A DNA stretch of 64,000 nt from Limonium bicolor (taxonomy: Eukaryota; Streptophyta; Magnoliopsida; Caryophyllales; Plumbaginaceae). Both the position numbers and the translations under genes were made by a program. Shown piece by piece: positions 2,986 to 61,666 of this stretch. Within the stretch, counting starts at the first letter, position 1. Each line of letters begins with the position of its first letter. The stretch lies in NCBI GenBank assembly GCA_023374045.1, contig CM041781.1, forward strand, positions 141,166,982-141,230,981. The letters are read 5' to 3'. Below the pieces are notes generated by a model that had not been told where the DNA came from, searched no databases, and saw only the letters and a program-made list of their open reading frames with translations.

Positions 2986-2990
2986 CTAAA

Positions 2991-8027: not shown

Positions 8028-8697
8028 GTAAAAAGGAAATCCTTTTTACGAGGTCAAGTGAGGAATAATTCCCTCTATTTGAAAATTCAGTCAACTCCAA
8101 TTCCACTTTATCCTAACTGCCTCTATTCTAACGTGAATATTTGTGACCACTTGTAGGGAGTTTCAGGAATCCTTCGACCCCGATGTGATCAGCATCAGTG
8201 TTAAACTATCCTTTCACTCCAATTTGTGTTCAGTTTCCCTTGATCAATAGAAAATCAAGTTCCACCTCCCATGTAATTTTCAAACATCAAATTATTCATT
8301 CATTTCTAATTTTCTATCTTTTTAGCCATTCTAGTCATAATCAATACATCTCCAAGGTGTGGACTCAGTCCACCAATCGTTCTCAGTTCAACTCCAAGCA
8401 ATTAGCAAGGGAGTTTAATTCCTACTAAGTTCTATATTTGTTCCGTACCGATTCTTACCATCTTATAGCTCATATATTCCTTGAACCTCTTTAATCCTCT
8501 TCACTAATTCTCTTAACTTGTACTCACACCGGAGTTAACAAGGAAGGTACTTAATACGTATGGTATTCACATCTTATGTGCGTAATAACCATAATTATCT
8601 TAAAATGTTTATGTAAAACAAATTCTCAAATTTTTTTATGCTATTCACATCGTAGTTTACGTACATAGTACAAAAACATACGTTAAACGGTTTTTCA

Positions 8698-8714
8698 CTC
8701 TACCCCCCTTAAAA
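8698..8714 (-). promoter_or_regulatory. Element A second (internal) polypurine tract
   Basis: The reverse complement TTTTAAGGGGGGTAGAG is almost identical to copies in B (22930-22946) and C (56933-56950). It lies about 1.2 kb inside the true 3' tract. Whether it primes DNA synthesis is unknown. Confidence 0.6.
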
Positions 8715-11700
8715 CGGATTACACCCACATAATCAACATGATATCACCCTTGAACTTAGGTTCAAGATTCACATTATGATCTGATCAAAGGGTCTTAACC
8801 ATGTTAATGGCTTAGTCTCTGTATCTGGGATCCTTAACGGTACTTATACCATCTTTTCAACTTTATTTGGTCTACCCTTGAAGGTTCTAAAGTATTTGAT
8901 CGGTAAGTCGTATATTTATCCAACTGGAAGTCGTGTGGTACATTGTTCCTTTCCCGTTCATTAGGTATATGAAACCTTTAAGGTACCGGTCTGATAGCTT
9001 CTACTGCGCGACTCTGATAACCTTAGGCTTAATTTGCCTTTCTTATCCTTTTATAGTATTATATATCCTTATGCCTACTTACAGTTTTGGAACATTGGTC
9101 TCTCAATGAACACATGTTATCTTTTATCATACACGGGCTTAATGAGTTGTAGCTTGTATAGCCCATTCCCTCTGAAATTCTAATGTTCATACTCTTAGTG
9201 TTGTCTCAAGTGTCTAAGTCGTTCTTTCCAATTGACCTTTGGTCTGAGGATGATTCTTAATCTGAAACTACTGTTTAGTGTTTATTTCCCTTTACAGTTT
9301 TATCTTTAACGTCTTAAGACATGTTCTATGTCTGCACTTAATAATCCGTGCTCATCGCACTTCATAATTCTTAATTATTTTCTGCTTGAAATGAGTTCTC
9401 TACTTCCTTTGTGTCGTTGGCTTAACTGAGTTCCTTCTCTTCAACTGTGGTAGTAGCTACTCTGGTCTGATCTTGCATTGTTGACCATGGTACGGAGTCG
9501 ACTACTTTTCGTGTTCCTTACACTACTCATTTACATGCATGGGGTACCTTACTGGTACATTACTACTTACCCGACTAACTCATGAATGAGTATGCCAGGC
9601 CCGCAAGCTCCTGTGGAGTGCGGTTGTCCCACATCTCGTTTTAGTATACTCGTAGTGTCCGTCACACATTTAGCCATTGCTAATTATAAAGTATTCTATT
9701 GTCGATCTCCTCTTTCATCGTTCCATAATAACACTTATTGTTCTTCTTGAACTTAATCAAGGGAAATCCATCTACCGTGTTCTTAGATATGATATGTTCT
9801 AGCTTGTGTTTGTATTTAGTATGGACTCTATCCTTTAGTAACTGAGGTCTCTTTCTAACAAGCCTATCATCTTGTTTCTCATGTTTGATCTACTAGGAAT
9901 GCACCTCCAGTTCCTTAAGGAGTGGACAGTGTGCTTCCTGTGAAATCTTTCATCGCATGGTCTCGGTTACTGGCGTAAATGAACAGTTCGTCTTCCATCG
10001 TATTTCCTCACTTACATTGATTTTAGCTTATAGATCTAATTGTCTTTGTGTCAATATTTGACGGTTTCTATATAATGGTCACTTTGATGCGCATCATGAC
10101 TAAATCCATTTATATAGGTATTGTCTTCCTGACCTCTACTACTACGGTAGCTTGCCTTTATTCTGTCACCCATTGGTGGTGCAACTCTTCAATCATTTAT
10201 TCTAACTGCTTATGGTGGTTGTCGTACCGTGCCATAAAATCGTTATCTCTTGATATGAAGGTGTTTCGTTTCAATTTTGCGTTCGCAAGTAGGTCAGTCA
10301 CTCTCACGTTCTTCCATCCTTTATGACGTTATTTACCAAGTAATTTAACTGGTTACAGAAGAATTCATCCATTGAGTCACAAGCTCTACTGAGCGTTGGT
10401 CACTCGGCGTGCCATATTTTGCACTCACAATGTTTATCTTTGACGATTACTAATTCCTAAATCTTAGGCGCCGGATATAAGGTTTGTCTATGCTGTATTC
10501 CTTCTTATATGTATAACTGAAAGGTTCCAAGGTAATTTCAAAGTTTACGGTTCAGTTTTCTAACAAAAGAATGTTCTATCTCTAATAAGTGAGAGCCCAA
10601 AATGGGGGGTTTATTCCCACTCAAAGTCCTCACAACAAGGAGTGGTATCCCCACCCTAAAAGGAGTGCTTTGTTCTCCGCCTCCGTCTATTGTATCATCT
10701 TTATATTCTCACCAGTACTCATTTGGCAATCCCTCCACATGTATGTTATAGGTTTCATAACGATTCATATCTACGAATTGTAGTTCGCTCATGGCTTAAA
10801 TAAGTCCTCTTATGCCTTCTTGCGCCTCGGGCTCTGATGTGGTAAACATCCTTGGCTTGTAGGCTCTTAGTGCTTAATTTCCTTGAGTGAGAGCCGTTGC
10901 TCGGTTCACTTCTTGTACTCTTACTCATCTATAGGCTATCCTCATAAGTTTTTGGTTCTTTGAATTCTCTCAACCGTTAGGATACATATTAAATGTAGTC
11001 CCGGATTCCATGGTAAGTCCCTGCTTCCCACTGTGGATGTTCGTCCAGGTGATCTAACGTTATTTAGTGTTTGCAAATATTTCCGCTTTTAAAGACTTGA
11101 GTCTTTTAGCGATTAAGGTTCAGTTCGTACTAGGCGTCTACCTTACGGTGTCTAAGTTGGGTAATTATCCTGATTATCATGCGCTTCCATCTCAATGCTT
11201 CGTTCAACATTTGTTGACTACGCCGTCCGTCAATGATCAATCATACTTGGGTGTTAATGAGTTAGGCAATAATGCTAACTGTCGTTCATCGGTTCGTTCG
11301 GCTCGACTATGCCCGCTCTGTGGGGTAGTCCTCTCAGCTTTTCTCTTTCAGAGTTGTATGTCTTTGATCCTTGGTAGGTTATAGTCTAAGTTCATTTCCT
11401 CTATCCCTGTTTCCGGGGTTTACTAACATCTTCAATGAAGAATGTTTGTTACTTGTATTCCTAGTGGTCATCCTGGGAGACTTATCCCGTTCTTGTTGAA
11501 AGTCGTTCCGTCCGCTGTCTTCATTGTATCACGTAATACATTCCTTGTATGTTATTACTTACATAGTGTTTTGCTCGGATTACTGAGCGATCTCTTAGGT
11601 TCTTCTATTCGAGGTTCGGGATTGGTGTTCTCACCTGTACTATCGGTTGTTGTTGTAGTAGGTTGTACTGTTGCTAAAATTCATATCGTTTAGTATTCTA

Positions 11701-12840
11701 TCCAAGTTCAGCTCCCTGCTGACTGGTGTGTCGACTCAGCTCGTCATGGTCAGGCCGTCAGGCCTTTCCAAGGTCTCATTCTCCAATTCATATGGATTTG
11801 CAATCTGGTATTAATATGTGTCATAACTGTAGTGCTCTACTATCTTGCCATGATGGGTTCCTGTATAGCTTAATCGTGGTAGCACTTGCTATGGCAAGTG
11901 CGCCATGCAAGATGGGCTATCGGTACCATGTACAACTGTAGTGGTACTTCCTCCTAATATCCATGTAATTGGTAGTCCTCGGGACTCCTAGATGTTCTCT
12001 TCCTTTGGGTAACTGACCATCCGGCAGTTTCCTGGTTGTTTTGACATGACAGTCACTTATCAGGGCGTTCCTCTTTCTGAGGGAACCCCTTGTTATTTAC
12101 TTATGTCTTAATCCTCACTCCCGTTTTCACGCATTTGTCGTGGTTACAAAGTACTGATTCTCCTTTAGGCACTACGTCGTAGTCCTATTTCCTTATTCAA
12201 TTTGTACATGTTTCCTTAGTCACCTGAGCTATGCCAGTCAGGTTCTCGTAAGTTTTCAAGTTGTATGGGGGTTTGGAGTCCCTATTTCATAATGGACTTT
12301 CCGGTAGTCTTTATCCTCTTGCGCGGTATTATCCCGCTGTTATGTTCCTTCGGACCACTGTCCGATATCCTTGTCGCTTCTCTTTTCCTTTCCATTGCAC
12401 TCGTAGTGCTTTTCTTATTATTGGTATGGCGGGTTATTTCGACTGCGTAGCATGTCGACCCATGTTGTCGGTAATTACCATTCTCTTATTGGTAGAATTC
12501 CATTGGCAGCGCCTGGTTCATCATTGCGCTCCAATTAAAACCTCCAAGTTTTCATAAACAGTTGTATAACGATATGTTTCTCGTATTTCTTAATGTTAAC
12601 TAACTACCAGATCGGGTTTCCCCGAGTAAGAGAAGGCTTTCATCTCTCTGGCGTTTGTTCCCCGTATTTCAGAACCAGGAAAGTTGAGGGAGGGTTTAGG
12701 TATTGTAGGTATCCGGTAAACACCGGGAAGTCCTAACTAACGCACCTCACGCTCTATCTCTCAACCCTTAACCCATAACTCAAACTCCAACTCGGTATCC
12801 TCCTAAGTTCGGTAATTCTAGTCATCAGAGCGTAACTACA

Positions 12841-12851
12841 CTCTGATACCA
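12841..12851 (-). promoter_or_regulatory. Element A primer binding site
   Basis: The reverse complement is TGGTATCAGAG, five bases from the 5' LTR end at 12857. It fits priming by initiator Met tRNA. Confidence 0.85.
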
Positions 12852-12856
12852 CTTTT

Positions 12857-14548
12857 TGTAACACCCCAACTCAAAGAAGCCAGATATCTAATAAACCTCC
12901 ATTTACATATATCAACATTGCTGCGGAATTCTTACAACAATTGGTGTTACCGCCGTTAGTCACCCACGTGACTAACTAGGCATACTAAATACTCCAAGAT
13001 CAGGCTACGGTCTGATGGACCAGAATATACCGAACATTAGTATACTAAATCCTAACCAATTACATATTCTCAATACAAAGTACTTCATATCCTAATACAT
13101 CTTACTAACATCTCATACCATTTACTAAACGAGTATACATGCACAACACGTGTAACAAAAGGAAAACAACCCAAAGTACTTCTACCCGATCCTACCCTCA
13201 GAACAGTCTTCTTCTGTCATTCACCAGCAAAATAAATATGGATGCCCCTAGGGGCTCAGCACCTTCGCTAGTACGATTCTCCTATAGCCCCAAGCTAACG
13301 GGGCTACTACGACTACGTGTCGATAGCATGCGGTTGATTAATAACACGACATAAATACGAAGTGAAATAAACACCACACCACATATGAACAATTATAGTT
13401 CAAACACAATGAACGACTTAAAAACGTTCCTTAAGTAAGTGAGTTAATCTTTTAACTCCTTAAGTTATGATTTCCTTATCCTCAATCCAAGTCTTATCTC
13501 ATCTCAAGTCTTATCTTAGTCTCAAGTCTTATCTCAATCTCAAGTCTAATCCCAGTCTCATTGTACCAACCGTTCTTTAATTAGAATTGGTTTTATCGTA
13601 ACTCAATGTTTATCTTTGTCGGGTCAAAAGTAACCCTAGCCAATGAGCTATTAACTCCATTGGTTAAATAAACAACTTATCTTAAATTTGGGATTTAGGT
13701 GATCCCACCATACCATCTTAATCTGGCCTCCCACCTTGAACTGTAATCCAAGGTGGCCGAGTCTATATGTTGACTCTAGGTGACAAGTCAAACACGAGTC
13801 TCGACAGAAGTCGGATCTGATATAGATACCAACCCTCTTTCCTTAACATGCATGACCGGAGTCAGTCCCGGATTCCTCACTCCCCCATGTTCCAGTTAGT
13901 CAGTAGTCTTAAAGATGAAGTGTTAGTTAAACTTTTTTCGGGTATTAACCAACCAACATTTAGAGTGTGAATTCTTATATCAAATCAATGTTACTAAGCA
14001 TTGTTAGTAACTAAACTCAAAGTCGAGAGTGTTAGTACAATGCAATCACACAAGAAGCTCAATAGTCCAGTTGCTTGCTTTATCTTGTTTTATTCGAAAC
14101 AAATAAACAATTAGCACACAAGCCGAGGGACACCTTGTTAGCAAGCAGGCTACAAGAAAACCATACCGTACACCGTCTGTTGTTCGGTTGCTTATTCTCC
14201 TTCCGAGTCCCAATTCACGAGTCCTAAAACATTCATTCAATTTAGATTGTTAATTACTTTCAATCAACCTAACTTACTTAGCCACTAATGTTTACCCACT
14301 GGTAATTACTAAGTCCTTATAGTTTTAATCTTAAACACTAAAATCACTTTATTTCTCTTAGTTTCCTAAGTCCTTATATGCTTATCCTTCTAATCACCAT
14401 TACCCTCCTAATAGTGGTCTACTAATGTCACACTTTCTTTTTTTGTTTACAAAGGCCGACCGACCCACTCTGGGGTAGGTCGCCTGGATGGGTCGGATGC
14501 AGAAGCATCAAGTTTGATAGTTTTTGCTCAACCGAGCTAAATAGGGTC
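12857..14548 (-). mobile_element. Element A: 5' LTR, first segment
   Basis: It begins TGTAACACCCCAAC next to the primer site and follows the 3' LTR (3029-4690) base by base with scattered substitutions and indels. It breaks off at GGGTC (14544-14548), where element C is inserted, and resumes at 61407. The reverse-strand ORF at 14046-14240 is chance sequence. Confidence 0.85.
14544..14548. repeat. Target-site duplication of element C, left copy
   Basis: GGGTC directly precedes the C LTR start (TGAAATACCCC at 14549). The matching GGGTC is at 61407-61411, followed by continuing A LTR. Confidence 0.9.
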
Positions 14549-15090
14549 TGAAATACCCCAAACATGGTGTTTAAATGATAAACAAAGATATAATAAGGCT
14601 AAAGAATGGCTTAGAAACGTTAAGAAACCATTTTAATCAAAGAAAACACCAAAAGAGCAGTTTAAGCCAAAAACATGCTCTAAGCTTGGAGAGACTTGGG
14701 TGAGCACCCAAATATCATTCTAAGACCTTAGTAATATCCTAATGGTCATTTTAAGCCAATTACCTAAGAAAACCAAGCTCAAAAACAAGTTAAAACACAA
14801 AATGTGCTTTAAGGACTCTGAAAGCACATTTTTGAAAAATTGTCTTAGAAAGGGGTTTTAAGTGGCTAAATGCCCATGATTACTCCTTAATTAACTTGTG
14901 TACTAATTAGTATCACATTAGGAAGTCTAAATCAATGGGAAATCAAAAATTTCACAAATATGTGCACTAATTTGTGAATAGTAACCATATAGTGCCTAGT
15001 TTAGTTTTTAATCAATTAAGTCTAATTAATTGGTCAAACAAGACCATGACCAGCCTAATTAATGAAGGGGGCCGGTTTTCTAAGGGTGTG
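14549..15090 (+). mobile_element. Element C: 5' LTR, first segment
   Basis: It starts TGAAATACCCCAAACATGG and matches the start of C's 3' LTR (57214-57765) closely. The B array interrupts it after GTGTG at 15086-15090. No gene is seen in it. Confidence 0.9.
15086..15090. repeat. Target-site duplication of array B, left copy
   Basis: GTGTG precedes B's first LTR. The same five bases follow the last LTR (47214-47218). A third copy with flank follows the second LTR at 28643. Confidence 0.9.
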
Positions 15091-47213: not shown

Positions 47214-47218
47214 GTGTG
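47214..47218. repeat. Target-site duplication of array B, right copy
   Basis: GTGTG, matching 15086-15090. The uninterrupted site in C's 3' LTR (AAGGGTGTGAGTCACC, about 57758-57773) has one copy. Confidence 0.9.
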
Positions 47219-47300
47219 AGTCATCAAGAGTAGCAAATTAATGTTAGAAGAAAAAGAGAAAAGCAAGTTGTTACTATTTGCTTTTAAGGAATCAAATATC

Positions 47301-47400
47301 TTATATGCCATCTCTCTCCTCCTTTCTTCATTCTTCATCTTCTCCATCGATTTCTCTTGCTCACTTTCTTCTCTCTCACGTAAGAAGCAACCTCCATGCT
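47301..47400 (+). promoter_or_regulatory. Putative C LTR promoter and leader start
   Basis: TTATATGCC is followed by a CT-rich stretch (CATCTCTCTCCTCC onward), similar in arrangement to the B LTR promoter candidate. It is repeated near 57848 in the 3' LTR. Assigned by composition only. Confidence 0.3.
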
Positions 47401-48991
47401 AGCTCCATCTTCTCTTGCGCACATCTTGCTCATTTAAGCTCCAAAATCAAAACCAAGCACATATATCTCTTAGTTAGCTCAACCTCTTTCTTTCTATCCT
47501 TCCAAAACTTCAAGAGCTCCATTTTGGTGCCAAGGCAAACCGCCATTAGAGGGGGAAACTCAAGCTTGGAGACTCCATTAGCTTCTCCATTCTCTTAAGG
47601 TAAAGAATATGTAAGAAAATCTAGGTTTCCATCATTCTCTCTCCATGTCCGAAAATTATCACTCATGGGGTTCCATTTTTATTCCTTGTTATAGCTTGTT
47701 TCCTACTCTCCAAAGGATAAAGGAGGTCCTTCTTGCTTCATATCCAAGCTTGTCTTGAGAAACCAAGGTAAAACAATCAATTTAATACCTTAAAACACAT
47801 TTTTAACCTAGGTTTTTATTCCTTAATGTTAGTGTGTTGTTTAGTACTCATTGAAGTCATTGAATGTTGGTTAGAACATTGGCAAGGAGAACTTGGTTGG
47901 TGACCGAGATTGTTCAAGGAAAAAGTCTAAGGAGGAAAGTTTGTGAGCTTGTAAACGAACAAGGTAAATTACTTACCTTAAGGTGTTTTGTTGATTAAGG
48001 GAATGGGATTTAGATAGGTGATGAGTTTAGTGTAGAGTTTACATTGGGGAAGAACTATAAAAATCTAGGAGAAACAATGACTATTCTTGTGAACTTGTAA
48101 ATAAGGAGCCAATGGGAAAAGAGATAGTTAAACCATGTTGAGATGAATTATAAGAAGCATTTTATTTCAATGGGAGCCTTGTTGTGTGTATTTGCAGGTC
48201 AAAGGCTATATATATATTGAGGAAATTCAGTGTTTAAGATTTATGCATTTAAGGGCCTAAGTGCCAAGCAATTTAAGTTCATGCACTATATTGTGATGTA
48301 GTGTAGTTTTGGTGTATGATGTGTGCTAAGGAGGTTTAATGAGAGTTTGAATGTTGATAGCTATTTGATGGTGAAAAACTAAATGTTTTGGTGTAATAAT
48401 GTACTAGAGAACCCATGGCAAAATTTAGAGAAGAACCTAAGTGTTTAGGATGTGTTAAGGAGATTTCATGACCAAGGTAGTACTAGGAAGTTTTAGAGGT
48501 TGTCTTGATGAAAAAGGGTGAGTTTAAGGTTTATAATGAGTTAGAATGACCTAGACATGATCATGGAGGATTTAGGAATCAAATGAATGTACTAGTGTAT
48601 TTAGGACTTAGGCAAACATTGGTAAACTAGTAGAAAAGAAATAATGTGGGTAGAAGGAGGCATAAACTTGTGTAGAAACTTTGAGTAGTTGCATAAGGAG
48701 TTTTAGATGGTGAAAGATGCTTGGGAGATGATGTTATAGTCGTGAGGAAGCTCTTGGCATAGTGGCTGTATTAGGTATGAACCACCACTTAGAAACCTAG
48801 TGAAAAACATTACAAGAATTGGCATGATTACAAGGAAATTGCATGATGACTAAGGTAGGTGTTGGTGAGTGATTTAATGTGTTTAGTGGAAGGCTTAAGG
48901 TGTATTTGAGGTGCCCAAATGAGTTTAGAACATACTAGGATATATGAGGTGAAGTTTGGAGTTAAATGGGAATTTAGAAACAAGGTTCTAG

Positions 48992-49399
48992 AGCCGATCC
49001 ACCTTAGGGACTGGACCTGCAAGGTCGGTCGAGCTCAGTTTACACTACCGGAAAGAGTTTCTGGAACCGATCGAACTTGGGGATCGGACTTACAAGTTCG
49101 GTCGGGCTTGTATTTTGTGAACGAATTAAATCTCTGGAATGGACCGACCTTGGGACCGGACTTACAAGGTCGGTCATGCTTGGAATTTTGTACTGGAATT
49201 GGTCTCTGGAATCGACCGAACTTGGGACTGGACTTGGCAAGTTCGGTCGAGCTTAAATTTCCAACGGGGGAAAACTCTCGGGAATGGACCGACCTTGGGG
49301 ACTGGACTTGCAAGGTCGGTCGGGGTAAAATTTTCAAACGGTAATGCGTCCTGGAATGGACCGACCTTGGGTAAGGTCGGTCGGTAAGTTCGATCGAGC
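48992..49399. repeat. Array of about six GACCGACCTT/AAGGTCGGTC hairpins, C 5' LTR
   Basis: Units of about 70 bases hold GACCGACCTTGGG.CCGGACTT and CAAGGTCGGTC arms, alternating with a GACCGAACTT/AAGTTCGGTC version. Each pair of units is separated by AT-richer spacer. The 3' LTR copy is at 59511-59912. The position in the LTR matches the B cluster (17118-17299) and the A cluster (4582-4693), although the arms differ. Confidence 0.8.
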
Positions 49400-50897
49400 C
49401 AAAAACAAAAAAAAAGAAATTTTAAATTCTAAAGATGTTAATTAGTAATAAGGTATGCCATTGGTAGGGTAATAATGATTAGGGACCTAAGAACCTAAGG
49501 AATTAAGTGAAGTTAAGTATAAACCTTAATGTTTAAGGTTAAGTTATAAGGTTAGGAGGTAAGGACTTAAGAGAGTACTGGATGGGAATCTTAGGGATTA
49601 AGTGTCTTAAGTAAGGTGCAAATTACTAATGACCTAAAAATGAATGATGTTTTAGGTTTGTGAATTGGGACCCCGAAGAAGGTTAAACAAACAACAGTCG
49701 ACGGTGAACGGTACAGTCTTTCTTGTGACCTGCTTGCTAACGAGGTGTCCCTCGGCTTGTGTGCTATCTGTTTATTTGCTATGACTAAGACAAGATAAAG
49801 CATGCAACCGGATATTAACGTTCTCGTTGTGTATGTGTTTTCTTCACACTAACCCACGAGGCTTAAGGATAGCTACTAACTAAGCTTGATACTTATTAAG
49901 TTAATGAGAGGATTTGTACATTGGTGATTGTTGGTTAATACCCGTCAAGGTTTAACTAACACATGGTAATTAAAACTTTCACTAACCATAACTTGGGGTG
50001 GGAGTGAGGAATCCGGAATGGTACCGGCACATGTGTATTGGGGGAGGTCGGTATCTGAATCAGATCCAACTTCCAAATAAGACTTGTCATTGGACTCGTT
50101 GGCTAGGGTCAACAAACCGACCCGACCACCCGGACTACTGTTTGAGGTGGGAGGCACATTAAGGATGGCGTGGGGGGATCAAGCCTACATCCCCAACAAA
50201 TTAAGAAAGGTAGCTTCCTGCCGGATAGTGCACTGCTACCGGCTAGGGTTAACCAAGCCCTATAAAAATAAGCAACCAATTAAGGGCTAACCAATCTAAT
50301 AGTGGAACGGTTGGCAATTATTAGGTTAAGGAGATTGTGGATCTAAGGAGTTAAGAACTAACTCACTTATTAAGGGAACGCCTGAGTCGTTCATTTGCAT
50401 ATGAGCTATTTATGTTCATTGTGGTTGTTGTTTTATTGCATTTCATATTATGTTTGTTATGCTAATCAACTTCCATGCTATCGACAATTAGTCGTCGTAG
50501 CCCCGTTAGCTTGGGGGCCATGAGAGGGTCGTACCAGCATTCGTGCTGACCCCCTTCGGGGGCTATTTTTACACTTGCGGGTAAGCGGCCGATGAAGTCA
50601 CACCACGAGAGTAGGAGCGGGTAGCCCTAGGTGGGACTTTATTTTGAGTACGGGTAGCGCCTATGCACCCGTCTGTTAGTAGTTGAACTTGTGAAGTATT
50701 GCATGGTTTTGGAGATACTTTAAACTCGGTTGGTGTATGTATTATGGAAATGCGGTTGTAAATATTTAAGTAACGGTATTTCTTGTTGATTAGATCGTGG
50801 CAAGGTCCTGGTGTTAGTTTAGTTCCGCTGCGACGTTTATGTGTTACTGTTAAGTTGCGATAACCACGAATTGCTTAAGACGGGGTGTTACAAAAAG

Positions 50898-50909
50898 TGG
50901 TATCAGAAC
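50898..50909 (+). promoter_or_regulatory. Element C primer binding site
   Basis: TGGTATCAGAAC, one mismatch from the consensus TGGTATCAGAGC, five bases after the LTR. Confidence 0.85.
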
Positions 50910-51760
50910 GTAGTTACGCTCTGATCAAGAAATACCGGACATAAGAAACCACCGAGTTAGGATATAAGTTAAGAAATAAGTGACGGGTTAAGGGTGTGAG
51001 TTGTTAGTGTGAGTAGAGTCAGATGACCACTAATAAGTGTGGATCGTCTTTACCGTCTACGAACGTTATAAATTCGTTAACCGAAACAGTGGTGGATACG
51101 AATCTAATGTGAGTTATGATTGTTCAGATGTCAGGAAGGAGAGGCCGAGGCCGTGGTCGAGGTGACGAGACTGAGATACCGGAGGGGCAGACGATCGCAG
51201 AGATCGTAGCTGCCGCCTTAGGGCATATGGGATATCAGCCTGGTGTGGGTGCACCACCTCCACCGCCACAACCCCGGGAACCGAATTGGGTGAAGAGCCT
51301 TGCAGACCTTCGACCTGCACATTTTAAGGGGGAGACCGATCCCGCCAAGCTCGAGGCGTACATCTCCGAGCTGGAGACCGCCTTCGAGACCCTTGACGTC
51401 CCTGCTGGGATCAAGGTGCGTCTAGCTGCGTTCTACCTGAAGGGGGCAGCAGGCGATTGGTGGAAGCTGGTGAGGGCCGAGCATGTGGCCAATCCAGAGT
51501 TTGGCTGGGAGCAGTACACCGCCTTGCTACGAGCAAAGTACTATCCCGCCCATGTCCAGACAAAGAAGCGCCTACAGTTGGATGCGCTCATGCAGACCGA
51601 CAAGATGACGGTGGACGAGTATTACACGGAGTTCACCGCCTTGCTCCGTCTTCTGCCAGGTCTTGGGTATTCAGACCAGATACTGGTGGACCGCTTCTAT
51701 GGCAGGCTTAGCCATCGACTCCGCTACGGCATGGGGCCGACGAGTTATACTACCTTGCAG

Positions 51761-51839
51761 TTAATAAGAATGAGTAAGATATAATTAAGTTAATAAGATT
51801 TAGTTTGTGGGAAATAAGAGGGACTAATACCATGGGAAG
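51761..51839 (+). other. Putative degenerate intron 1 in C gag
   Basis: AT-rich 79-base interruption between ...TTGCAG and CAAGAGTGC. Skipping it joins two gag frames in phase. It ends GGAAG and contains a GACTAAT branch-like motif. Its first base is T (TTAATAAG), so a canonical GT donor would need to have been lost. It could instead be a small insertion. Confidence 0.4.
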
Positions 51840-52095
51840 CAAGAGTGCTATCATGCCGCTGCTAAGGTTGAGATAACCGTCCAGCTAAGGGACGAGGACA
51901 ATGCCAAGAGAAAGAATGCTGGGAAGAGTACTGAACACCAAGGGCAAGGTGGGTACAAGAAACAGAAGTACCAGCCTCAAGCCTAAAAGAACCAGAACCA
52001 AAAAGGAAATGAGGAAAAGGAGAAGGCTACTGATGAGCCACTGAAACTGACTTATGCTTATGCTGCTAAGCCCCTGCGCTCCAGGGCGCCAAAGG

Positions 52096-52171
52096 GTAAG
52101 GAAATACACCTTGAGTAAATAAGAATGGTTAACAACATTAAGACACAATCACTAATGCGATACGTAATCAG
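52096..52171 (+). other. Putative intron 2 in C gag
   Basis: 76 bases, GTAAGG...ATCAG, AT-rich, with CACTAATG (plant branch-site-like) about 20 bases before the acceptor. Removing it restores one frame from the Lys/Gln-rich tail into the zinc-knuckle segment; read through, the frame meets stops at once. It is the best-supported of the four gaps. Confidence 0.55.
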
Positions 52172-52513
52172 GTACTAAGTCTGGAAAGGAAACCGGAGGT
52201 GGCTACCAACGACACTACTATTGCCAGAGGTGCAAGGGGGACCACCCTGAAGTTGACTACAGGGGGAATAAGGTGGAGTGTAATTTTTGCGGTGTACTCG
52301 GGCACCGGGCATATGAGTGCTACGGGAACCCGAAGAGTAAGAATTACAGACCCAGTTTTTAGATTAAGACCAAGACCGATCAAGGAGTTGGATCCGACGG
52401 TCAGAGGAGGGTGCAACAAGCTGCAGACAAGAACCCACGGGTGACCCAGAAGTCGGGACCCACACTACACTTGGTGGACCGGGACGATGAGCCTGAGCCC
52501 TCATCGAGGCCAG

Positions 52514-52692
52514 GTACCGCTATAACCATTTAGTAATAAAATTACCTGCTTACCGCATTATCATGCCTGTTTGGTGAATAATTGAGTTAAGTGAGAATGA
52601 GATGAGATTAGGACTTAAGTGAGATATAACCTACTACCACCTTAGGAAACTTCAACATTTGCTATCCAATGCCTTCAACACCTGACCCGGAG
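52514..52692 (+). other. Putative intron 3 between gag and AlkB
   Basis: It starts GTACCG directly after a CAG and ends CCCGGAG. It is AT-rich in the middle and has stops in the flanking frames. The donor leaves phase 1, and the acceptor at 52692 enters the AlkB frame in the matching phase. The acceptor is not pyrimidine-rich, so it is uncertain; another AG at 52736 lies nearer the first conserved AlkB residue but is out of phase. Confidence 0.35.
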
Positions 52693-53384
52693 TGCACCGA
52701 CATGAAACCCTAGACTTTCCAACCGAACAATGTTAGGTTATCCGCCCAGGTATGATTTTATTAAGGGGATACCTGACACCCGAAGCGTAAATAGCCATCA
52801 TCAGGAAATGCAATCAACTAGGAATGGGACCGGGAGGTTTTTATACACCGGAGTACCCAGGGGGAGCAAGAATGAAATTAAAGATGATGAGCTTAGGCAA
52901 GGATTTGAATCCGTATGCCAAGACCTACCAAACTACGAGGATGCATGATGGAGTCTCACCACCGGGAATACCCGAAGAGTTCCATCCGGTTATTATACAA
53001 GTCATGGAAATCGCTCAGCAGTTGGAAGCTGAACTGATTCCAGACATACAGGCGGACATTTGCATTGTGAACTTCTACAAGAAAGATGGGTGACTTGGAC
53101 TACATCAGGACAAGGACGAGACAACGGGGTCTCTCGAACGAGGGATACCCATAGTGTCTTGGTCCTTAGGAGATGACGCTGAATTTTTGTACGGCGAGCA
53201 TAAGCGTGCGGACCGTGCTAATAAGTTAATACTTAAGTCAGGGGATGTATTAGTTATGGGAGGAGAGTCAAGGATGTTATACCATGGGATTAAGAGAATC
53301 AAGCTGAATACAGCACCGTCAGCAGTGATTAATGCAATGCATATGAAACCAGGACGGTTAAACCTAACCTTTAGACAATATTAG
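52693..53384 (+). pseudogene. AlkB-like 2-oxoglutarate/Fe(II) dioxygenase domain inside element C
   Basis: One frame from about 52693 (clearly from 52737, VIRPGM) to the stop at 53382-53384 reads as a plant ALKBH1-like AlkB domain. N to C: the VIRPGMILLRGYL start, LGMGPGGFY, LKMMSLGKDLNPY, PPGIPEEFHPV, then the core ICIVNFYKKDG, LGLHQDKDE with the iron-binding His (53103) and Asp (53109), VSWSLGDDAEFLYG, SGDVLVMGGESRMLYHG with the distal His (53283), and the C-terminal RPGRLNLTF-type end with two Arg (53355, 53373) that bind 2-oxoglutarate in the family. The terminal Tyr-stop matches the usual AlkB end. Premature stops: TAG 52734, TAA 52788, TGA 53091. It lies between the gag zinc knuckles and the protease, in the same orientation. 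Known AlkB enzymes oxidatively remove methyl groups from nucleic acids. A role on element RNA or DNA is inference. Confidence 0.9.
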
Positions 53385-53541
53385 CTATGTAACGTTTTGG
53401 TGTGAGATAAGGAATGAGATGTAAGATTAAGGCACATGTTGTAAACAGGATGGTTATGAATAAAATAACAGTGTTGTTCATATAAATCGTTACGACTCTT
53501 GTTATACCATCAATACTCATGAAGCTTATGAATACAATTAG
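53385..53541 (+). other. AT-rich gap between AlkB and protease (putative intron 4)
   Basis: About 157 bases of AT-rich sequence with stops in every frame. It has several GT sites shortly after the AlkB stop and ends ACAATTAG at 53541. The protease frame opens right after, in the same phase as the acceptor at 52692. The gag donor at 52513/52514 could therefore join in phase either to AlkB or directly to protease. Confidence 0.35.
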
Positions 53542-54175
53542 GTCATGGACTCGGTACGGAAGGTGTGCTAAGCATACTTATAGAGGCATAGGCCGACGCC
53601 AGCGGTACTATCCTCACTGGCACCTTTCCGATTAATGGGATTGAGGTATCAGTTCTCTTCGACTCAGGGGCCTCGCATACCTTTGTCTCGGCATCTTTTG
53701 CGAGATGGTTGGGGCTAGACGCTGATGAGCTACCCGACTTCACGGTTACGCTCCCGCTATGGAGAAGGTTCGTTGCACTCGCTACTACCGAGGAGCCATT
53801 GTCAGAATTAAGGGGGAAGACTTTCCAGTCAGTTTTATTGAGTTCAGGGAGTTGGGATTTGATGTTATCTTTGGGATGAACTGGTTGGAGCGGCACAAGG
53901 GTCGTATCCTCTGCGCCGAGCATAGATTGCTGCTCAGGAGCCCGTCTGGGGTAACAATATCATACCACCAGAGGCCCAGGGAGCCTTCGACTAAGATCAT
54001 CACCGCTATGGCAATGTATAAGGAGTTGAGGAGAAAGGAAGAAGTGTACCTCTGCTATGTACAAGACATAGAGAGAGACCCCGAGTTCGACCCCGAGTTC
54101 GACCCTGACTTACCGGTAGTGTCAGAGTTCCCCGACCTATTTCCACGGGAACTGCCCAGCATGCCACCCACTTGA
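53542..54175 (+). pseudogene. Element C: aspartic protease region of pol
   Basis: Retropepsin-type protease with the active site VLFDSGASHTF (Asp near 53661), followed by VRCTRYYRGAIVRI and the C-terminal LGFDVIFGMNWLERHKGRI. A TAG at 53589 precedes the active site. A one-base indel near 53755 moves the frame between the two halves. A repeated GACCCCGAGTTC leads into the linker (EFPDLFPRELPSMPPT), which ends at a TGA (54173-54175). The enzyme would process the Gag-Pol precursor. Confidence 0.88.
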
Positions 54176-55030
54176 GAGGTACAGTTCACCATCGAGCTAC
54201 TACCTGGTACCGGACCAAAAGCCAAGGCACCATACCGTATGGCTCCGGCAGAGATGAATGAGTTAAAGGAACAACTGAAGGACTTGTTAGATAAAGGGTT
54301 CATAAGACCCAGTGTATCACCATGGGGAGCGCCAGTTCTCTTCGTGAAGAAGAAGGATGGTAGTCTCCGCCTCTGCATGGACTACAAAGAGTTGAATGCA
54401 GTGACAGTGAAGAATAAGTATCCACTACCCCGCATTGACGATCTGTTCGATCAGTTGAAGGGAGCATCTGTGTTTTCCAAGATTGATCTCAGATCGGGGT
54501 ATCATCAGATAGCCATTAAGGAGGGAGACATTGAGAAGACGGCATTCCGGACACGATACGGCCACTATGAGTTTACAGTAATGCCGTTCGGTTTGTCGAA
54601 CGCACCGGTGAAGTTTATGGTTTTGATGAACCGCTTGTTCTAGGAGCAGCTGGACGAGTCGGTTGTGGTATTCATCGACGACATACTGATGTATTCGAGA
54701 TCTAAGGTTGAACATGAGGAACATCTGAGGAGAGTATTAGAGATATTGAGGGAGAACCAGCTATATGCTAAGTTCTCCAAATGTGAGTTTTGGATTGACC
54801 AGGTCTCTTTCCTAGGTCATGTCATCTCAGATGCTGGGATCTCAGTGGATCCAGCATAGATTGATGCCGTACGTACTTGGCCAAGGACGAAGACTGTTAC
54901 CGACATCCGGAGCTTTCTCGGCCTGACAGGTTACTATAGGAGGTTTGTTAGGGATTTCAGCAAGGTCGTGAAACCAATGACCAGTCTGATGAAGAAAGAT
55001 GCACCGTTCTTATGGACGGCTGACTGTGAG
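54176..55030 (+). pseudogene. Element C: reverse transcriptase
   Basis: Gypsy RT in one frame: [80 protein letters not shown], then catalytic [11 protein letters not shown] near 54671, and the thumb/connection [10 protein letters not shown] and FLGLTGYYRRFVRDFSKV. Both catalytic Asp of the IDD motif are present. TAG stops at 54641 and 54857 interrupt it. It is very similar to element E's RT through the same motifs. It copies element RNA into DNA in the cytoplasmic particle; this copy cannot. Confidence 0.92.
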
Positions 55031-55480
55031 AGATCATTTTAGAGTTTGAAGGACTCACTGACCACTGCACCGGTTCTGACCATTCCAGACGGTACAGAGG
55101 GCTTTGAGGTTTATTGCGATGCATCCGGCAGAGGGTTGGGTTGTGTGCTCATGCAACTTGGCAAGGTGGTGGCATATGCCTCACGCCAGTTGAAGAAACA
55201 TGAGGAGAACTACCCCACAAATGATTTGGAGATGGGAGCTGTAGTCTTCGCTTTGAAGATATGGCGCCACTACTTATACGGGGTTAGGGTGACAATCTAC
55301 ACCGATCATAAGAGCTTAAGATACATATTTACTCAGAAGGAGTTGAATCTCAGACAGAGGAGATGGTTGGAATTCTTGAAAGACTATGACATTGAACTCC
55401 AATACAAAGAGGGAAAGGCCAATGTCGTAGCGGACGCCCTAAGCCGTCGAGCACACTCACTCCATTCGCTAGTTTCTTTC
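55031..55480 (+). pseudogene. Element C: RNase H
   Basis: Acidic residues in [34 protein letters not shown] and [11 protein letters not shown] are intact. The domain ends at [18 protein letters not shown] at 55040 lies at its start. It removes the RNA strand during reverse transcription. The same frame as RT continues into the integrase zinc domain. Confidence 0.92.
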
Positions 55481-56898
55481 TCCGGCTTGGTTGATGAGGT
55501 GCGAGAGGCTCAGAGGACAGATGAGTATACGAGAGAGGTCAGACAGAAGCTGACAGATGGTACTTTTGAGGGTCAGAAATATGACTTCAGACTTCACGAC
55601 GATGATGTGATCAGACTTAAGGGCCGGTTATGCATACCACGGGGCAACACGGATCTGAAAGACCGTATACTTAGGGAATCACATTGTTCTTCAGTCTCCA
55701 TCCATCCGGGAGCCTCTAAGATGTACAAAGACATGAGGAGGTACTTCTAGTGGTCGGGGATGAAGACAGATGTTACCGAGTTGTCATGAGGTGTCTCACA
55801 TGCTAGAAGGTAAAATTCGAGCACCGACGACCGAGCGGAATGGTACATTCGATGCCAGTTCCGGAGTGGAAGTTCCATGATATCTCCATGGACTTTGTAG
55901 TTGGACTCCCACCTGCTAGGGGAGGTCTCAACATGATATGGTTGGTGGTGGATCGCCTTACCAAAGTAGCCCGATTCATACCGATGAAGGATACTTGGAA
56001 GGTGACCAAATTAGCTGAGTTGTATGAGAAAGAAATCATGAGACATCACGGGATACCAAAGACCATAGTGTCAGATAGAGATACCAGATTCCTTTCGAGG
56101 TACTGGAGAGCTACTAGAGAAGCGTTGGGTACAGAACTGAAGTTGAGTACCTCGTTCCATCCTCAGACAGATGGTCAGACTGAGCGTACGATTCAGACAC
56201 TCGAGGACATGCTGAGGGCATGTGCCTTAGACTTCCAGGGCAGTTGGATTGACAAATTGCATGTGATCGAGTTTTCATACAACAACAGCTATCACGCTTC
56301 GATCAAGATGACACCTTTTCAAGCGTTGTACGGTAGACCATGTCGTACACCGCTCTGCTGGGATGAGTCAAGTGAGACGGTCATCATAGGACCAGAGTAC
56401 TTAGAGCAAGTTAAGGCCGAGGTTCAGCAAATCAGAGAGAACATGAAAGCTGCTCAAGATAGGCAGAAGTCGTATGCTGATGTTCGACGACGAGACCTGG
56501 AGTTCACAGTGGGCGACCGGGTATTTCTGTGAGTTTCACCAATGAAGGGTGTATTCAGATTTGGGAAGAAGGGTACATTAAGCCCGAAGTTTGTTGGTCC
56601 TTATGAGATTACGGAGCGGGTGGGCCCGGTTGCTTACAGGTTGAATTTACCTGCTGAACTGGGTAAAGTGCATGATGTTTTTCATGTTTCACAGCTAAAG
56701 AAATACATGCACCACCCCTCCCATGTGTTAGAACCTGAGAGGTTGACATTAGAACCGAATATGAGATCAGTGGAGATTCCTCAGAGAAATTTGGATAGTA
56801 AGACTAGGGACACTCGCCATAAGTCTGTGCGACTGGTGAAGGTTCTCTGGTCTAACCAGGATGTCGAAGAGGGCGAAGTACCCTTCGTTGTTTACTGA
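55481..56898 (+). pseudogene. Element C: integrase with degenerate chromodomain tail
   Basis: The zinc domain (His in [11 protein letters not shown], Cys in CLTC) is broken by TAG 55748, a one-base loss near 55784 and TAG 55804. The catalytic core has Asp in HDISMDFVVGLP, Asp in IVSDRDTRF and Glu in TDGQTERTIQTLEDML, all intact. TGA 56530 follows VGDRVFL. The GPY-type domain [11 protein letters not shown] and the [12 protein letters not shown] linker precede a tail [17 protein letters not shown], which is the first part of a chromodomain. Its Thr-Trp-Glu part is absent and the frame ends at 56898. Another frame reads AKYPSLFTD just there, suggesting a short deletion. Chromodomains direct integration toward marked chromatin. 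The combination points to a chromovirus, probably Tekay/Del-like. Confidence 0.9.
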
Positions 56899-57198: not shown

Positions 57199-57213
57199 TT
57201 AAGGGGGGTAGAT
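57199..57213 (+). promoter_or_regulatory. Element C 3' polypurine tract
   Basis: TTAAGGGGGGTAGAT immediately before the LTR start TGAAATACCC. Confidence 0.85.
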
Positions 57214-60200
57214 TGAAATACCCAAAACATGGTTTTTAAATGATAAACTAAGATATAAGAAGGCTAAAGAATGCCTTAGAAACGTTAAGAAACCATTTTA
57301 ATCAAAGAAAACATAAGGAAACACCAAAAGAGCAGTTTAAGCCAAAAACATGCTCTAAGCTTGGAGAGACTTGGGTGAGCACCCAAACATCATTCTAAGA
57401 CCTTAGTAATATCCTAATGGTCATTTTAAGCCAATTACCAAAGAAAACCAAGCTCAAAAACAAGTTATAACACAAATTGTGCTTTAAGGACTCTTAAAGC
57501 ACATTTTTGAAAAATTGTCTTAGAAAGGGGTTTTAAGTGGCTAAATGCCCATGATTACTCCTTAATTAACTTGTTTACTAATTAGTATCACATTAGGAAG
57601 TCTAAATCAATGGGAAACAAAAAATTTCATAAATATGTGCACTAATTTGTGAATAGTAACCAAATAGTGCCTAGTTTAGTTTTTAATCAATTAAGTCTTA
57701 TTAATTGGTCAAACAAGACCATGACCAGCCTAATTAATGAAGGGGGCCGGTTTTATAAGGGTGTGAGTCACCAAGAGTATCCAATTAATGTTAGAAGAAA
57801 AAGAGAAAAGCAAGTTGTTACTATTTGCTTTTAAGGAATCAAATATCTTATATGCCATCTCTCTCCTCCTTTCATTCCATCTTCTCCATCGATTTCTCTT
57901 GCTCACTTCTTCTCTCTCACGTAAGAAAGCAACCTCCATGCTAGCTCCATTCTCTTGCGCACATATTGCTCATTTAAGCTCCAAAATCAAAACCAAGCAC
58001 ATATATCTCTTAGTTAGCTCAAGCTCTTTCTTTCTATCCTTCCAAAACTTCAAGAGCTCCATTTTGGTGCCAAGGCGAACCGCCATTAGAGGGGGAAACT
58101 CAAGCTTGGAGACTCCATTAGCTTCTCCATTCTCTTAAGGTAAAGAATATGTAAGAAAATCTAGGTTTCCATCATTCCTCTCATGTCCGAAAATTATCAC
58201 TCATGGGGTTCCATTTTTAAGCCTTGTTCTAGCTTGTTTCCTACTCTCCAAAGGATAAAGGAGGTCCTTCTTGCTTCATATCCAAGCTTGTCTTGAGAAA
58301 CCAAGGTAAAACAATCAATTTAATACCTTAAAACACATTTTTTAACCTAGGTTTTTATTCCTTAAGGTAGTGTGTGTTTAGTACTCATTGGAGTCATTGA
58401 TTGGTTAGAACATTGGCAAGGAGAACTTGGTTGGTGACCGAGATTGTTCAAGGAAAAAGTCTAAGGAGGAAAGTTTGTGAGCTTGTAAAAAGAACAAGGT
58501 AAATTACTTACCTTAAGGTGTTTTGTTGATTAAGGGAATGGGATTTAGATAGGTGATGAGTTTAGTGTAGAGTTTACATTGGGGAAGAACTCTAAAAACC
58601 TTGGAGAAACAATGACTATACTTGTGAACTTGTAAATACGGAGCCAATGGGAAAAGAGATAGTTAAACCATGTTGAGATTGAATTATAAGAAGCATTTTA
58701 TTTCAATGGGAGCCTTGTTGTGTGTATTTGCAGGTCAAAGGCTATATATATATTGAGGAAATTCAGTGCTTAAGATTTATGCATTTAAGGGCCTAAGTGC
58801 CAAGCAATTTAAGTTCATGAACTATATTGTGATGTAGTGTAGATTTGGTGTATGATGTGTGGTAAGGAGGTTTAATGAGAGTTTGAATGTGATAGCTATT
58901 TGATGGTGAAAAACTAAATTTTTGGTTTTGTAATAATGTACTAGAGAACCCATGGCAAAATTTAGAGAAGAACCTAAGTGTTTAGGATTGTTAAGGAGAT
59001 TCATGACCGAGGTAGTACTAGGAAGTTTTTAGAGGTTGTCTTGATGAAAAAGGTGAGTTTAAGTTTAAATGAGTAGAATGACCTAGACATATCATGGAGG
59101 ATTTAGGAATCAAATGAATGTACTAGTGTATTTAGGACTTTAGGCAACATTGGTAAAACTAGTAGAAAAGAAATAATGTGGGTAGTAGAAGGGCATAACC
59201 TTTGTGTAGAAACTTTGAGTAGTTGAAAGGAGTTTTAGATGGTGAAAGATGCTTGGGAGATGATGTTTATAGTGGTGAGGAAGCTCTGGCATAGTGGCTG
59301 TATTAGGTATGAACCACCACTTAGAAACCTAGTGAAAACATTACAAGAATTGGCATGATTACATGAAATTGCATGAGGACTAAGGTGGTGTTGGTGAGTG
59401 ATTTAATGTGTTTAGGGAAGGCTTAAGGTGTATTTGAGGTTAGAACATAACTAGGATATATGAGGTGAACGTTTGGAGTTAAATGGGAATTTAGAAACAA
59501 GGTTCTGAGCCGACCGATTAGGGACCGGACCTGCAAGGTCGGTCGAGCTCAGTTTACACTACCGAAAAGAGTTTCTGGAACCGACCGAACTTGGGGACCG
59601 GACTTACAAGTTCGGTCGGGCCTGTATTTTGTGTACGAATTAAGTCTCTGGAATGGACCGACCTTGGGACCGGACTTACAAGATCGGTCATGCTTGGAAT
59701 TTTGTACTGGAATTGGTCTCTGGAATCGACCGAACTTGGGACCGGACTTGGCAAGTTCGGTCGAGCTTAAATTTCCAATGGGGGAAAACTCTTGGGAATG
59801 GACCGACCTTGGGGACCGGACTTGCAAGGTCGGTCGGGGTAAAATTTTCAAACGGTAATGCGTCGTGGAATGGACCGACCTTGGGTAAGGTCAGTCGGTA
59901 AGTTCGGTCAAGCCAAAAACAAAAAAAAGAAAATTTAAATTCTAAAGATGTTAATTAGTAATAAGGTATGCCATTGGTAGGGTAATAATGATTAGGGACC
60001 TAAGAACCTAAGGAATTAAGTGAATTTAAGTATAAACCTTAATGTTTAAAGTTAAGTTATAAGGTTAGGAGGTAAGGACTTAAGAGAGTACTGGATGGGA
60101 ATCTTAGGGATTAAGTGTCTTAAGTAAGGTGCAAATAACTAATGGCCTAAAAATGAATGAATGTTTTAGGTTTGTGAATTGGGACCCCGAAGAAGGTTAA

Positions 60201-61406
60201 ACAAACAACAGTCGACGGTGAACGGTACAGTCTTTCTTGTGACCTGCTTGCTAACGAGGTGTCCCTCGGCTTGTGTGCTATCTGTTTATTTGCTATGACT
60301 AAGACAAGATAAAGCATGCAACCGGATATTAACGTTCTCGTTGTGTATGTGTTTTCTTCACACTAACCCACGAGGCTTAAGGATAGCTACTAACTAAGCT
60401 TGATACTTATTAAGTTAAGGAGAGGATTTGTACATTGGTGATTGTTGGTTAATACCCGTCAAGGTTTAACTAACACATGGTAATTAAGACTTTCACTAAC
60501 CATAACTTGGGGTGGGAGTGAGGAATCCGGAATGGTACCGGCACATGTGTATTGGGGGAGGTCGGTATCTGAATCAGATCCAACTTCCAAATAAGACTTG
60601 TCATTGGACTCGTCGGCTAGGGTCAACAAACCGACCCGACCACCCGGACTACTGTTTGAGGTGGGAGGCACATTAAGGATGGCGTGGGGGGATCAAGCCT
60701 ACATCCCCAACAAATTAAGAAAGGTAGCTTATTGCCGGATAGTGCAATGCTACTGGCTAGGGTTAACCAAGCCCTATAAAAATAAGCAACCAATTAAGGG
60801 CTAACCAATCTAATAGTGGAACGGTTGGCAATTATAAGGTTAAGGAGATTGTGGATCTAAGGAGTTAAGAACTAACTCACTTATTAAGGGAACACCGGAG
60901 TCATTCATTTGCATATGAGCTATTTATGTTCATTGTGGTTGTTGTTTTATTGCATTTCATATTATGTTTGTTATGCTAATCAACTTCCATGCTATCGACA
61001 ATTAGTCGTCGTAGCCCCGTTAGCTTGGGGGCCATGAGAGGGTCGTTCCAGCATTCGTGCTGACCCCCTTTGGGGGCTGTTTTTGCACTTGCGGGTAAGC
61101 GGCCGATGAAGTCACACCACGAGAGTAGGAGCGGGCAGCCCTAGGTGGGACTTTATTTTGAGTACGGGTAGCGCCTGTGCACCCGTCTGTTAGTAGTTGA
61201 ACTTGTGAAGTATTGCATGGTTTTGGAGATACATTAAACTCGGTTGGTGTATGTATTATGGAAATGCGGTTGTAAATATTTAAGTAACGGTATTTCTTGT
61301 TGATTAGACCGTGGCAAGGTCCTGGTGTTAGTTTACTTCCGCTGCGACGTTTATGTGTTACTGTTAAGTTGCGATAACCACGAATGGCTTTAGACGGGGT
61401 GTTACA
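57214..61406 (+). mobile_element. Element C: complete 3' LTR
   Basis: 4.19 kb, TGAAATACCC to GGGGTGTTACA. It matches the split 5' LTR with scattered substitutions and small indels, many in 58380-59480. It contains the CT-rich leader (57860-57960), AAGGTAA motifs near 58139, 58304 and 58498, the hairpin array (59511-59912), and a conserved GACCCCC..GGGGGC palindrome near 61060. No gene is seen. Confidence 0.9.
59511..59912. repeat. Hairpin array, C 3' LTR copy
   Basis: Same unit as 48992-49399. Several arms pair better here (GACCGAACTTGGGGACCGGACTT), so the 5' copy has drifted at some arms (for example CGATCGAACTTGG near 49067). Confidence 0.8.
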
Positions 61407-61666
61407 GGGTCGGTCCACTGCAGAACCCTTTCCCAAAGTGCTTATTTTACTCCAATCTCTTCCACAAGTGCCCTAGTATGTTCCCATATCATTTTGCACA
61501 TTAATACCCTCTTAAATCATCCACCAACTCATTGTTCAACCCACATAAAAATTCCTTAATCACTTACTCAAATTCTTACTAAATTCCTAACACTTAAAAC
61601 TTAGTTCCTTATACTTCCAACATGTAAACTTTGCCCAAAACCTCAACTAACCAAAGTGTTTCTTCT
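61407..61666 (-). mobile_element. Element A: 5' LTR, second segment (with right TSD of C)
   Basis: It starts with GGGTC (61407-61411), the right duplication of C. It then continues A's LTR (GGTCCACTGCAGAACCC onward, matching 4689-4950 in the 3' LTR) until TTTCTTCT at 61666, where element D begins. The remaining 2.5 kb of this LTR lies beyond D. Confidence 0.88.

Follow-up and report, generated by a model that had tools for sequence, protein, structure and literature searches.

The window analysed here, a stretch of 64,000 nucleotides from Limonium bicolor (assembly GCA_023374045.1, contig CM041781.1, positions 141,166,982 to 141,230,981 of the forward strand), contains a decayed Ty3/gypsy long terminal repeat (LTR) retrotransposon, here called element C, in which an AlkB dioxygenase domain is placed between the gag zinc knuckle and the protease. 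The original prediction for this locus, made from the sequence alone, had described such a domain in the element's orientation and had proposed a search against AlkB-family profiles as a check. The search gave a significant match: Pfam PF13532 is found at 53094–53381 on the plus strand, the orientation of element C, with an expectation value (E-value) of 4.8e-28 (99.2 bits against a cut-off of 31.2), and the domain is flanked by gag (PF03732, 1e-15) and protease (PF08284, 3.5e-11), as predicted. The upstream piece of the domain (52791–53090) matches PF13532 at 6.1e-7, with 30.3 bits, slightly below the curated cut-off of 31.2. Both pieces align in order to a single Protein Data Bank (PDB) chain, 5xeg, titled 'The structure of OsALKBH1' in the fold library, with E-values of 1.6e-22 (upstream) and 2.8e-34 (downstream); the two halves form one frame, split by a stop. 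A tblastn search of the window (E ≤ 1e-3) found no second AlkB.

Element C was defined on the plus strand by self-comparison and inspection of its edges, and it measures about 14.7 kb without a younger insertion. Its LTRs of 4.2 kb, 5-bp target-site duplication, primer binding site (PBS), polypurine tract and domain order of gag, protease, reverse transcriptase (RT), RNase H and integrase are those of a Ty3/gypsy LTR retrotransposon. Its parts are as follows (P0002, P0122 and P0123 are proteins found in the searches described below; GC, fraction of G and C).

14544–14548, no strand: 5-bp target-site duplication GGGTC, left copy (sequence at the LTR outer edge)
14549–15090, plus: 5' LTR part 1 with TG start, cut by the younger insertion 15091–47213 (95.1% to 57214–57765)
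47214–50892, plus: 5' LTR part 2, ending ...GTTACA (96.2% to 57761–61406)
50898–50907, plus: primer binding site TGGTATCAGA (pattern match at 50888–50907)
51113–51761, plus: gag capsid, putative exon 1, the open piece running to 51781 (PF03732, 1e-15; 70% to P0122)
51849–52095, plus: gag linker, putative exon 2, start approximate (1 stop in 83 codons; GC 0.49 against 0.31–0.36 in spacers)
52096–52171, plus: putative intron B, 76 nt, AGG/GTAAGG ... TCAG/G (sole frame-compatible GT..AG pair of 6 tried; GC about 0.34)
52172–52513, plus: gag zinc knuckle, putative exon 3 (CX2CX4HX4C in the translation; zf-CCHC match weak, 17.9 bits, below cut-off)
52514–52645, plus: putative intron C, 132 nt, CAG/GTACCG ... 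CCTTAG/GA (one of 2 frame-compatible pairs of 6; GC about 0.35)
52646–53384, plus: ALKBH1-type 2-oxoglutarate (2OG)–Fe(II) dioxygenase, broken, with its own stop (PF13532; OsALKBH1 match; 72% to P0002)
53385–53591, plus: AT-rich spacer from the AlkB stop to the protease, GC 0.36 (base composition)
53592–53876, plus: start of aspartic protease, with a frameshift within (PF08284, 3.5e-11)
54176–54856, plus: reverse transcriptase, 1 internal stop (PF00078, 2.5e-20, on 54176–54640)
55043–55747, plus: RNase H and start of the integrase zinc finger (PF17917, 8.5e-35; PF17921, 5e-4; 74% to P0123)
55807–56895, plus: integrase core and C-terminal SH3-like part, 1 internal stop (PF00665, 2.4e-4, 21.7 bits, below cut-off; PF24626, 4.1e-23)
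57201–57213, plus: polypurine tract ahead of the 3' LTR (sequence)
57214–61406, plus: 3' LTR, 4193 bp (self-comparison, edges)
61407–61411, no strand: target-site duplication GGGTC, right copy (sequence at the LTR outer edge)

The AlkB region had been placed at 52693–53384. Its end is correct, but coding begins further upstream, near 52646: the GNFNICYP read there is similar to LGPFDICYP in the related protein P0003 and to the FDIC segment present in some host ALKBH1 proteins. It had also been described as recognisable from end to end. Both halves match 5xeg, and all seven checked metal and 2OG residues are kept (N and Y before HxD, then H, D, H, R and R); however, three in-frame stops and a frameshift near 52710–52725 break the domain.

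Regarding the subfamily, the profile built from the element-type AlkB clade described below has the rice OsALKBH1 chain as its best PDB match (1.7e-76), compared with 5.2e-24 for E. coli-type AlkB and 2.5e-14 for ALKBH1 (6ima), and it does not match ALKBH5 up to E = 1. An intact element-type relative, P0002, was modelled in place of the broken window copy and is predicted to adopt the AlkB dioxygenase fold, with a predicted local distance difference test score (pLDDT) of 94.2 and superposition on OsALKBH1 at 1.3 Å; its Foldseek identity is 52% to OsALKBH1 versus 16% to ALKBH5. ALKBH5 is also missing from the VIA-align rows shown, which by itself proves nothing, and in NCBIfam only bacterial AlkB models were hit, far under their cut-offs. 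The domain is therefore of the ALKBH1 type, nearer to ALKBH1 than to ALKBH5 or other homologues.

A protein search with the AlkB piece returned 2225 proteins at E ≤ 1e-10, 120 of which were listed. Six of them (P0002–P0005, P0020 and P0096) are 59–72% identical to the window AlkB, and all others listed, including named plant proteins, reach at most 51%; the nearest among the matches listed is P0002 (72%), on a contig of 26,621 bp. P0005, P0020 and P0096 are incomplete proteins, and P0005 and P0096 do not span all ligands. The gag piece has a single match at E ≤ 1e-10 among 3093 candidates, P0122, which is 70% identical and also lies on a 26,621-bp contig. In the RNase H search, scoring was limited to the 7997 candidates with the most words in common; its top match, P0123, is 74% identical along the entire piece and comes from a 23,054-bp contig, a size also recorded for the contig of the AlkB protein P0096. 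Other listed RNase H matches that span almost all of the piece do not exceed 56% identity, and several at 61–73% cover about half of it; among those ranked 2–7, several are 65–73% identical over 49–55% of the piece, and P0126 is 49% identical over 83%. In a tree of 45 rows (the query and 44 of the 120 listed RNase H matches), element C pairs with P0123 with a Shimodaira–Hasegawa-like approximate likelihood ratio test (SH-aLRT) value of 97, and the rank 2–7 matches present in that tree are not grouped with C, except P0128, which shares a larger and weaker group. Between 5 and 100 kb (15 + 15 entries), chance should yield about 0.01 equal contig sizes when the AlkB and RNase H lists are compared, and 0.0003 in the case of the gag match; at about 1.2–1.3 kb such coincidences do occur, with 1310 and 1176 in both the AlkB and RNase H lists. 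These comparisons give good support to the view that the same AlkB clade accompanies gag or pol of C's lineage on two other contigs, and with it to the predicted capture of a host ALKBH1-type gene by a Ty3/gypsy lineage. Viral contigs scanned with P0001 and the RT piece yielded no relative; alignment A2 recovered three IMG/VR contigs (L001–L003) with AlkBs 33–37% identical and, among genome contigs, 70 loci, all titled bacteria, at 29–47%.

A tree with host ALKBH1-like genes, which the original prediction had also suggested, was built from 62 of 121 sequences hand-picked for spread, with ferns and lycophytes not knowingly sampled. The seven element-type AlkBs (the window copy and six relatives) form one clade (99/94, and 100% of 200 bootstrap trees), and the sampled seed-plant genes, including the Ginkgo-like record Gb_05899, form a separate group of 44 rows (99/99). 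This separation suggests an old capture, or fast evolution afterwards. The first split of the clade divides P0003, P0004 and P0096 from the window copy, P0002, P0005 and P0020; since each of the two branches includes one of the linked contigs, the ancestor of the clade would, by parsimony, already have been in the element. An approximately unbiased (AU) test that placed the clade of seven together with 35 angiosperm rows rejected that arrangement (p 6.8e-5), and it was left unused, as it also forced plant-like rows and Ginkgo out.

For the conservation test, columns were taken with at least 20 of 38 non-element AlkB rows (plants, algae and further sequences, some of them bacteria-like). Differences between the window copy and P0002 fall in 4 of 61 columns that are at least 90% conserved and in 51 of the 135 others (p 2.1e-6); in the seven pairs tested for avoidance of conserved columns, p ranges from 3e-8 to 0.014. 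Changes private to the window copy follow this pattern too, with 3 in 46 conserved columns versus 24 in 85 others (p 0.003). Furthermore, under neutrality a frame of 197 codons would stay free of stops at about 66% identity with a probability of about 0.03, a figure to be read with the preference of predicted-protein databases for intact frames. Because changes avoid columns conserved in other AlkBs, to which neutral drift is blind, purifying selection on the AlkB clade is well supported.

The LTRs of element C differ by a Kimura two-parameter (K2P) distance of 0.028. From this age, about 0.34 stops would be expected in AlkB and 2.1 in gag and pol together, compared with 3 and 9 observed, although this expectation is crude and allows for no extra C-to-T pressure. 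All parts thus show more decay than the LTR age would give. Probably, then, the parent of C was itself defective, or homogenisation of the LTRs took place; this copy may have been defective already at insertion. The claim that AlkB has decayed like the adjacent gag and pol is upheld, as 3 stops in 240 codons and 9 in 1509 do not differ significantly (Fisher p 0.22).

An intron-like insert directly after ...HQ is present in three sequences outside the clade, P0090 from the seed-plant group and P0095 and P0103 from outside that group; its first residue is V, its last is Q, and DRDE, DKAE or DKDE follows. The site is uninterrupted in most aligned host proteins, as in spliced gene models, and the window AlkB and all six relatives have no insert there. 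Because this host-type intron is missing from all seven, capture through the spliced mRNA of a plant ALKBH1 gene is suggested; the observation fits such a route and is no proof of it. Within the element, the spacers of the gag–AlkB–protease region are AT-rich, with GC of 0.31–0.36 versus 0.45–0.59 in the coding parts, and frame-compatible GT..AG pairs number 2 of 14 in spacer A, 1 of 6 in spacer B and 2 of 6 in spacer C. The pair 52514–52645 in spacer C would set the zinc-knuckle exon, whose knuckle itself lies at about 52200–52360 (weak match), in frame with AlkB. Since the end of the gag open reading frame (ORF) in P0122 lies no more than four codons away from that of C's gag, the break after the gag capsid is probably common to both. 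The likeliest product is a predicted Gag–zinc knuckle–AlkB protein that would end at the AlkB stop. The RT frame differs from the AlkB frame. As an internal control, inspection by eye shows that in the neighbouring element F the zinc knuckle adjoins the protease without an AlkB.

Around its insertion site, element C is bordered by sequences that recur side by side in the window: 12856–14548 matches 3028–4675 (90.7%) and 61407–61666 matches 4684–4945 (95.4%), so that its empty site is visible. No second RNase H was found between the RNase H and the integrase zinc finger (residues 203–235 of 55043–55747), and 56533–56895 has no chromodomain match up to E = 0.1, a residual chromodomain-like stretch being seen by eye only. 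The window has no Rfam match at gathering thresholds and no tRNA by ARAGORN. We take the PBS TGGTATCAGA of element C to be of the tRNA-Met type, and likewise that of element F. According to PMC6317226, tRNA-Met primers are used by most chromoviruses and not by non-chromoviruses; given that rule and the assumed primer type, element C is probably chromovirus-like, and it is not filed as Tekay. Its LTRs also contain, at 49001–49371 and 59521–59885, about five tandem units of 72–73 bp with an inverted motif of the CGACC...GGTCG type, a possible regulatory repeat.

Three further elements surround or interrupt it. Element E (15091–47213), made up of four LTRs (about 4.27 kb each) and, alternating with them, three internal regions (about 5.0 kb each, 99.4–99.6% alike), is a tandem LTR-retrotransposon array inside C's 5' LTR with GTGTG on both sides; none of C's gag, pol or AlkB domains was found in it at E ≤ 1e-3. 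Element D (3028–14548 and 61407–61666, minus strand) had its 5' LTR struck by the insertion of C. Its LTR stretches are 70–81% similar to those of C, the same 20-base LTR-end/PBS string occurs at 12842–12861, and no pol domain was found at E ≤ 1e-3; it is possibly a non-autonomous relative. Element F (about 1–3020, minus strand) has gag and a zinc knuckle (by eye), protease and RT in the ordinary order without AlkB, and its RT is 74% identical to the RT piece of C.

The explanation proposed here, in which we have fairly good confidence overall, is that an ancestor of this Ty3/gypsy lineage would have captured a spliced plant ALKBH1 mRNA and retained it after the gag zinc knuckle and ahead of the protease, element C being a decayed copy. 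That a captured and selected AlkB-bearing lineage exists is highly probable. Its short introns would be spliced, joining Gag with its zinc knuckle to AlkB; carried within the particle, the fused enzyme would sit on the nucleic acid of the element itself and oxidatively remove adenine methyl groups in single-stranded or unpaired RNA or cDNA, and templates and copies would thereby be protected from host or chemical methylation. For an adenine-methyl substrate the chances appear about even, and action as a Gag-fused, particle-borne enzyme is put forward tentatively. The complete chain, i.e., an old multi-branch lineage with a spliced Gag–ALKBH1 fusion acting as an adenine demethylase in the virus-like particle on its own RNA or single-stranded cDNA, is on balance unlikely to hold in every part. 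Several points weigh against the proposed explanation: the window copy is unable to make enzyme; the linkage on the 26,621-bp and 23,054-bp contigs is indirect, taken from equal sizes and not from their DNA; the introns are predicted from consensus-like ends and base composition, and neither pair in spacer A is convincing; frame-compatible pairs (5 of 26, in stretches chosen by us) are no more frequent than the one in three given by chance, which lowers the odds of a Gag fusion; and the expression route of protease and pol is unexplained in a Gag–AlkB scheme.

It is possible, though short of an even chance, that AlkB is instead a separate, unfused protein from its own, perhaps alternatively spliced, message, acting in trans on element or host RNA, as was proposed for ORF2 of the Phalaenopsis retrotransposon Gypsy_Pa_2799. 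The orchid enzyme is reported as a separate ORF with N6-methyladenosine (m6A) demethylase activity in vitro (PMC9289625), the AlkB of C has its own stop and a frame unlike that of RT, and P0002 and P0005 begin with M at the first strand of the fold, although an ORF caller would cut them likewise; on the other side, a plausible acceptor sets AlkB in frame with the zinc-knuckle exon, possibly by chance. An improbable alternative is a nuclear role, in which AlkB, acting on the integrated DNA or its R-loops, would make the chromatin looser and relax the element's silencing. Rice ALKBH1 mutants are described as gaining N6-methyladenine (6mA) at R-loops, the protein counteracting H3K27me3 (trimethylation of histone H3 lysine 27) mediated by Polycomb repressive complex 2 (PRC2) (PMC10469495), but no pointer to such a role was found in the sequence, and the position beside the zinc knuckle would fit particle or RNA work better.

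The remaining alternatives deny a selected element gene. Plant retroelements acquire host sequence, and the window copy is broken, as would be expected of a passenger fragment carried in some copies without selection; this is nevertheless very improbable, as relatives only 59–72% identical keep every ligand they cover, conserved columns are spared, and the long stop-free frame is unexpected under neutrality, although a database built from predicted ORFs is biased towards intact frames. It is harder still to regard the clade as ordinary host genes of an unsampled plant group with coincidentally equal contig sizes. The linkage does come from sizes, and the small coincidences (1310 and 1176) are surely chance, but hardly any chance match is expected at 5–100 kb (about 0.01), three of the four proteins concerned (P0002, P0122 and P0123) are the best match of their own search, and the window itself has AlkB inside the element. 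The least credible is a late processed pseudogene landed in this one copy, which we reject. The host-type intron is missing, as in a processed copy, and the longest direct repeat flanking AlkB, of 10 bp, is borderline (equalled in 22 of 300 letter shuffles); however, other contigs pair the same AlkB clade with gag and RNase H of C's lineage, and no A-run of at least six follows AlkB. The prediction that the domain was present before insertion agrees with these observations.

Compared with plant ALKBH1 (ALKBH1C/1D-like; OsALKBH1, PDB 5xeg/5xoi), the window copy differs by its location in a retrotransposon and its own clade, and it has neither the post-HQ intron of some host-type sequences nor most of the variable N-terminus. 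Element C shares with Ogre the presence of intron-like spacer within the coding region of an LTR retrotransposon; in Ogre, splicing has been shown by experiment and there is no AlkB, whereas C has several short spacers in gag and around AlkB, with splicing predicted. In plant RNA viruses, AlkB presumably sits in the replicase polyprotein. Such viruses (Alpha-/Betaflexiviridae and Closteroviridae, named in PMC9289625) are, like C, mobile elements with their own AlkB domain.

The closest known system is Gypsy_Pa_2799 of Phalaenopsis, for which Alvarado-Marchena et al. (2022, PMC9289625) described Tat/Ogre elements with an ALKBH5-like 2-oxoglutarate-dependent dioxygenase (2-ODD)/AlkB ORF2 that demethylated m6A RNA in vitro; their consensus-based screen of 121 angiosperm genomes is reported to have found an AlkB-type domain in Phalaenopsis only, and the acquisition is termed recent. 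Apart from the orchid one, no AlkB-bearing retrotransposon was found in the literature searched (titles and abstracts of open-licence PubMed Central full text): as far as their text goes, PMC12786077 cites only the orchid case, PMC11963269 refers to it, and PMC11728184 concerns a different extra ORF. Both systems are plant Ty3/gypsy elements with an internal AlkB-family dioxygenase whose cofactor ligands are kept. As described, the orchid element is 25.5 kb long with 6.4-kb LTRs, an ALKBH5-type enzyme, a tRNA-Arg PBS, dual RNase H, gag-pol as one ORF and a separate ORF2 of 565 amino acids; element C, in contrast, is about 14.7 kb long with 4.2-kb LTRs, an ALKBH1-type enzyme, an assumed tRNA-Met-type PBS, a single RNase H, and AlkB between zinc knuckle and protease amid intron-like spacers, and its AlkB belongs to a deep clade rather than to a recent acquisition. 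Because enzyme subfamily, RNase H layout, size and position differ, C looks like an independent capture, the two being set apart by the description of the orchid protein and not by alignment. If the complete chain set out above holds, it would add a second, independent example of a retrotransposon with an epitranscriptomic or epigenetic counter-defence, its enzyme class being unlike that of the orchid. Given the reported link between rice ALKBH1 and 6mA in DNA that is single-stranded or unpaired (PMC10469495), such a capture also raises the question of whether adenine methylation serves plants as a mark on the cDNA or R-loops of retroelements. A second, selected capture of another AlkB class by another Ty3/gypsy lineage would make demethylation a recurrent weapon of plant retrotransposons.
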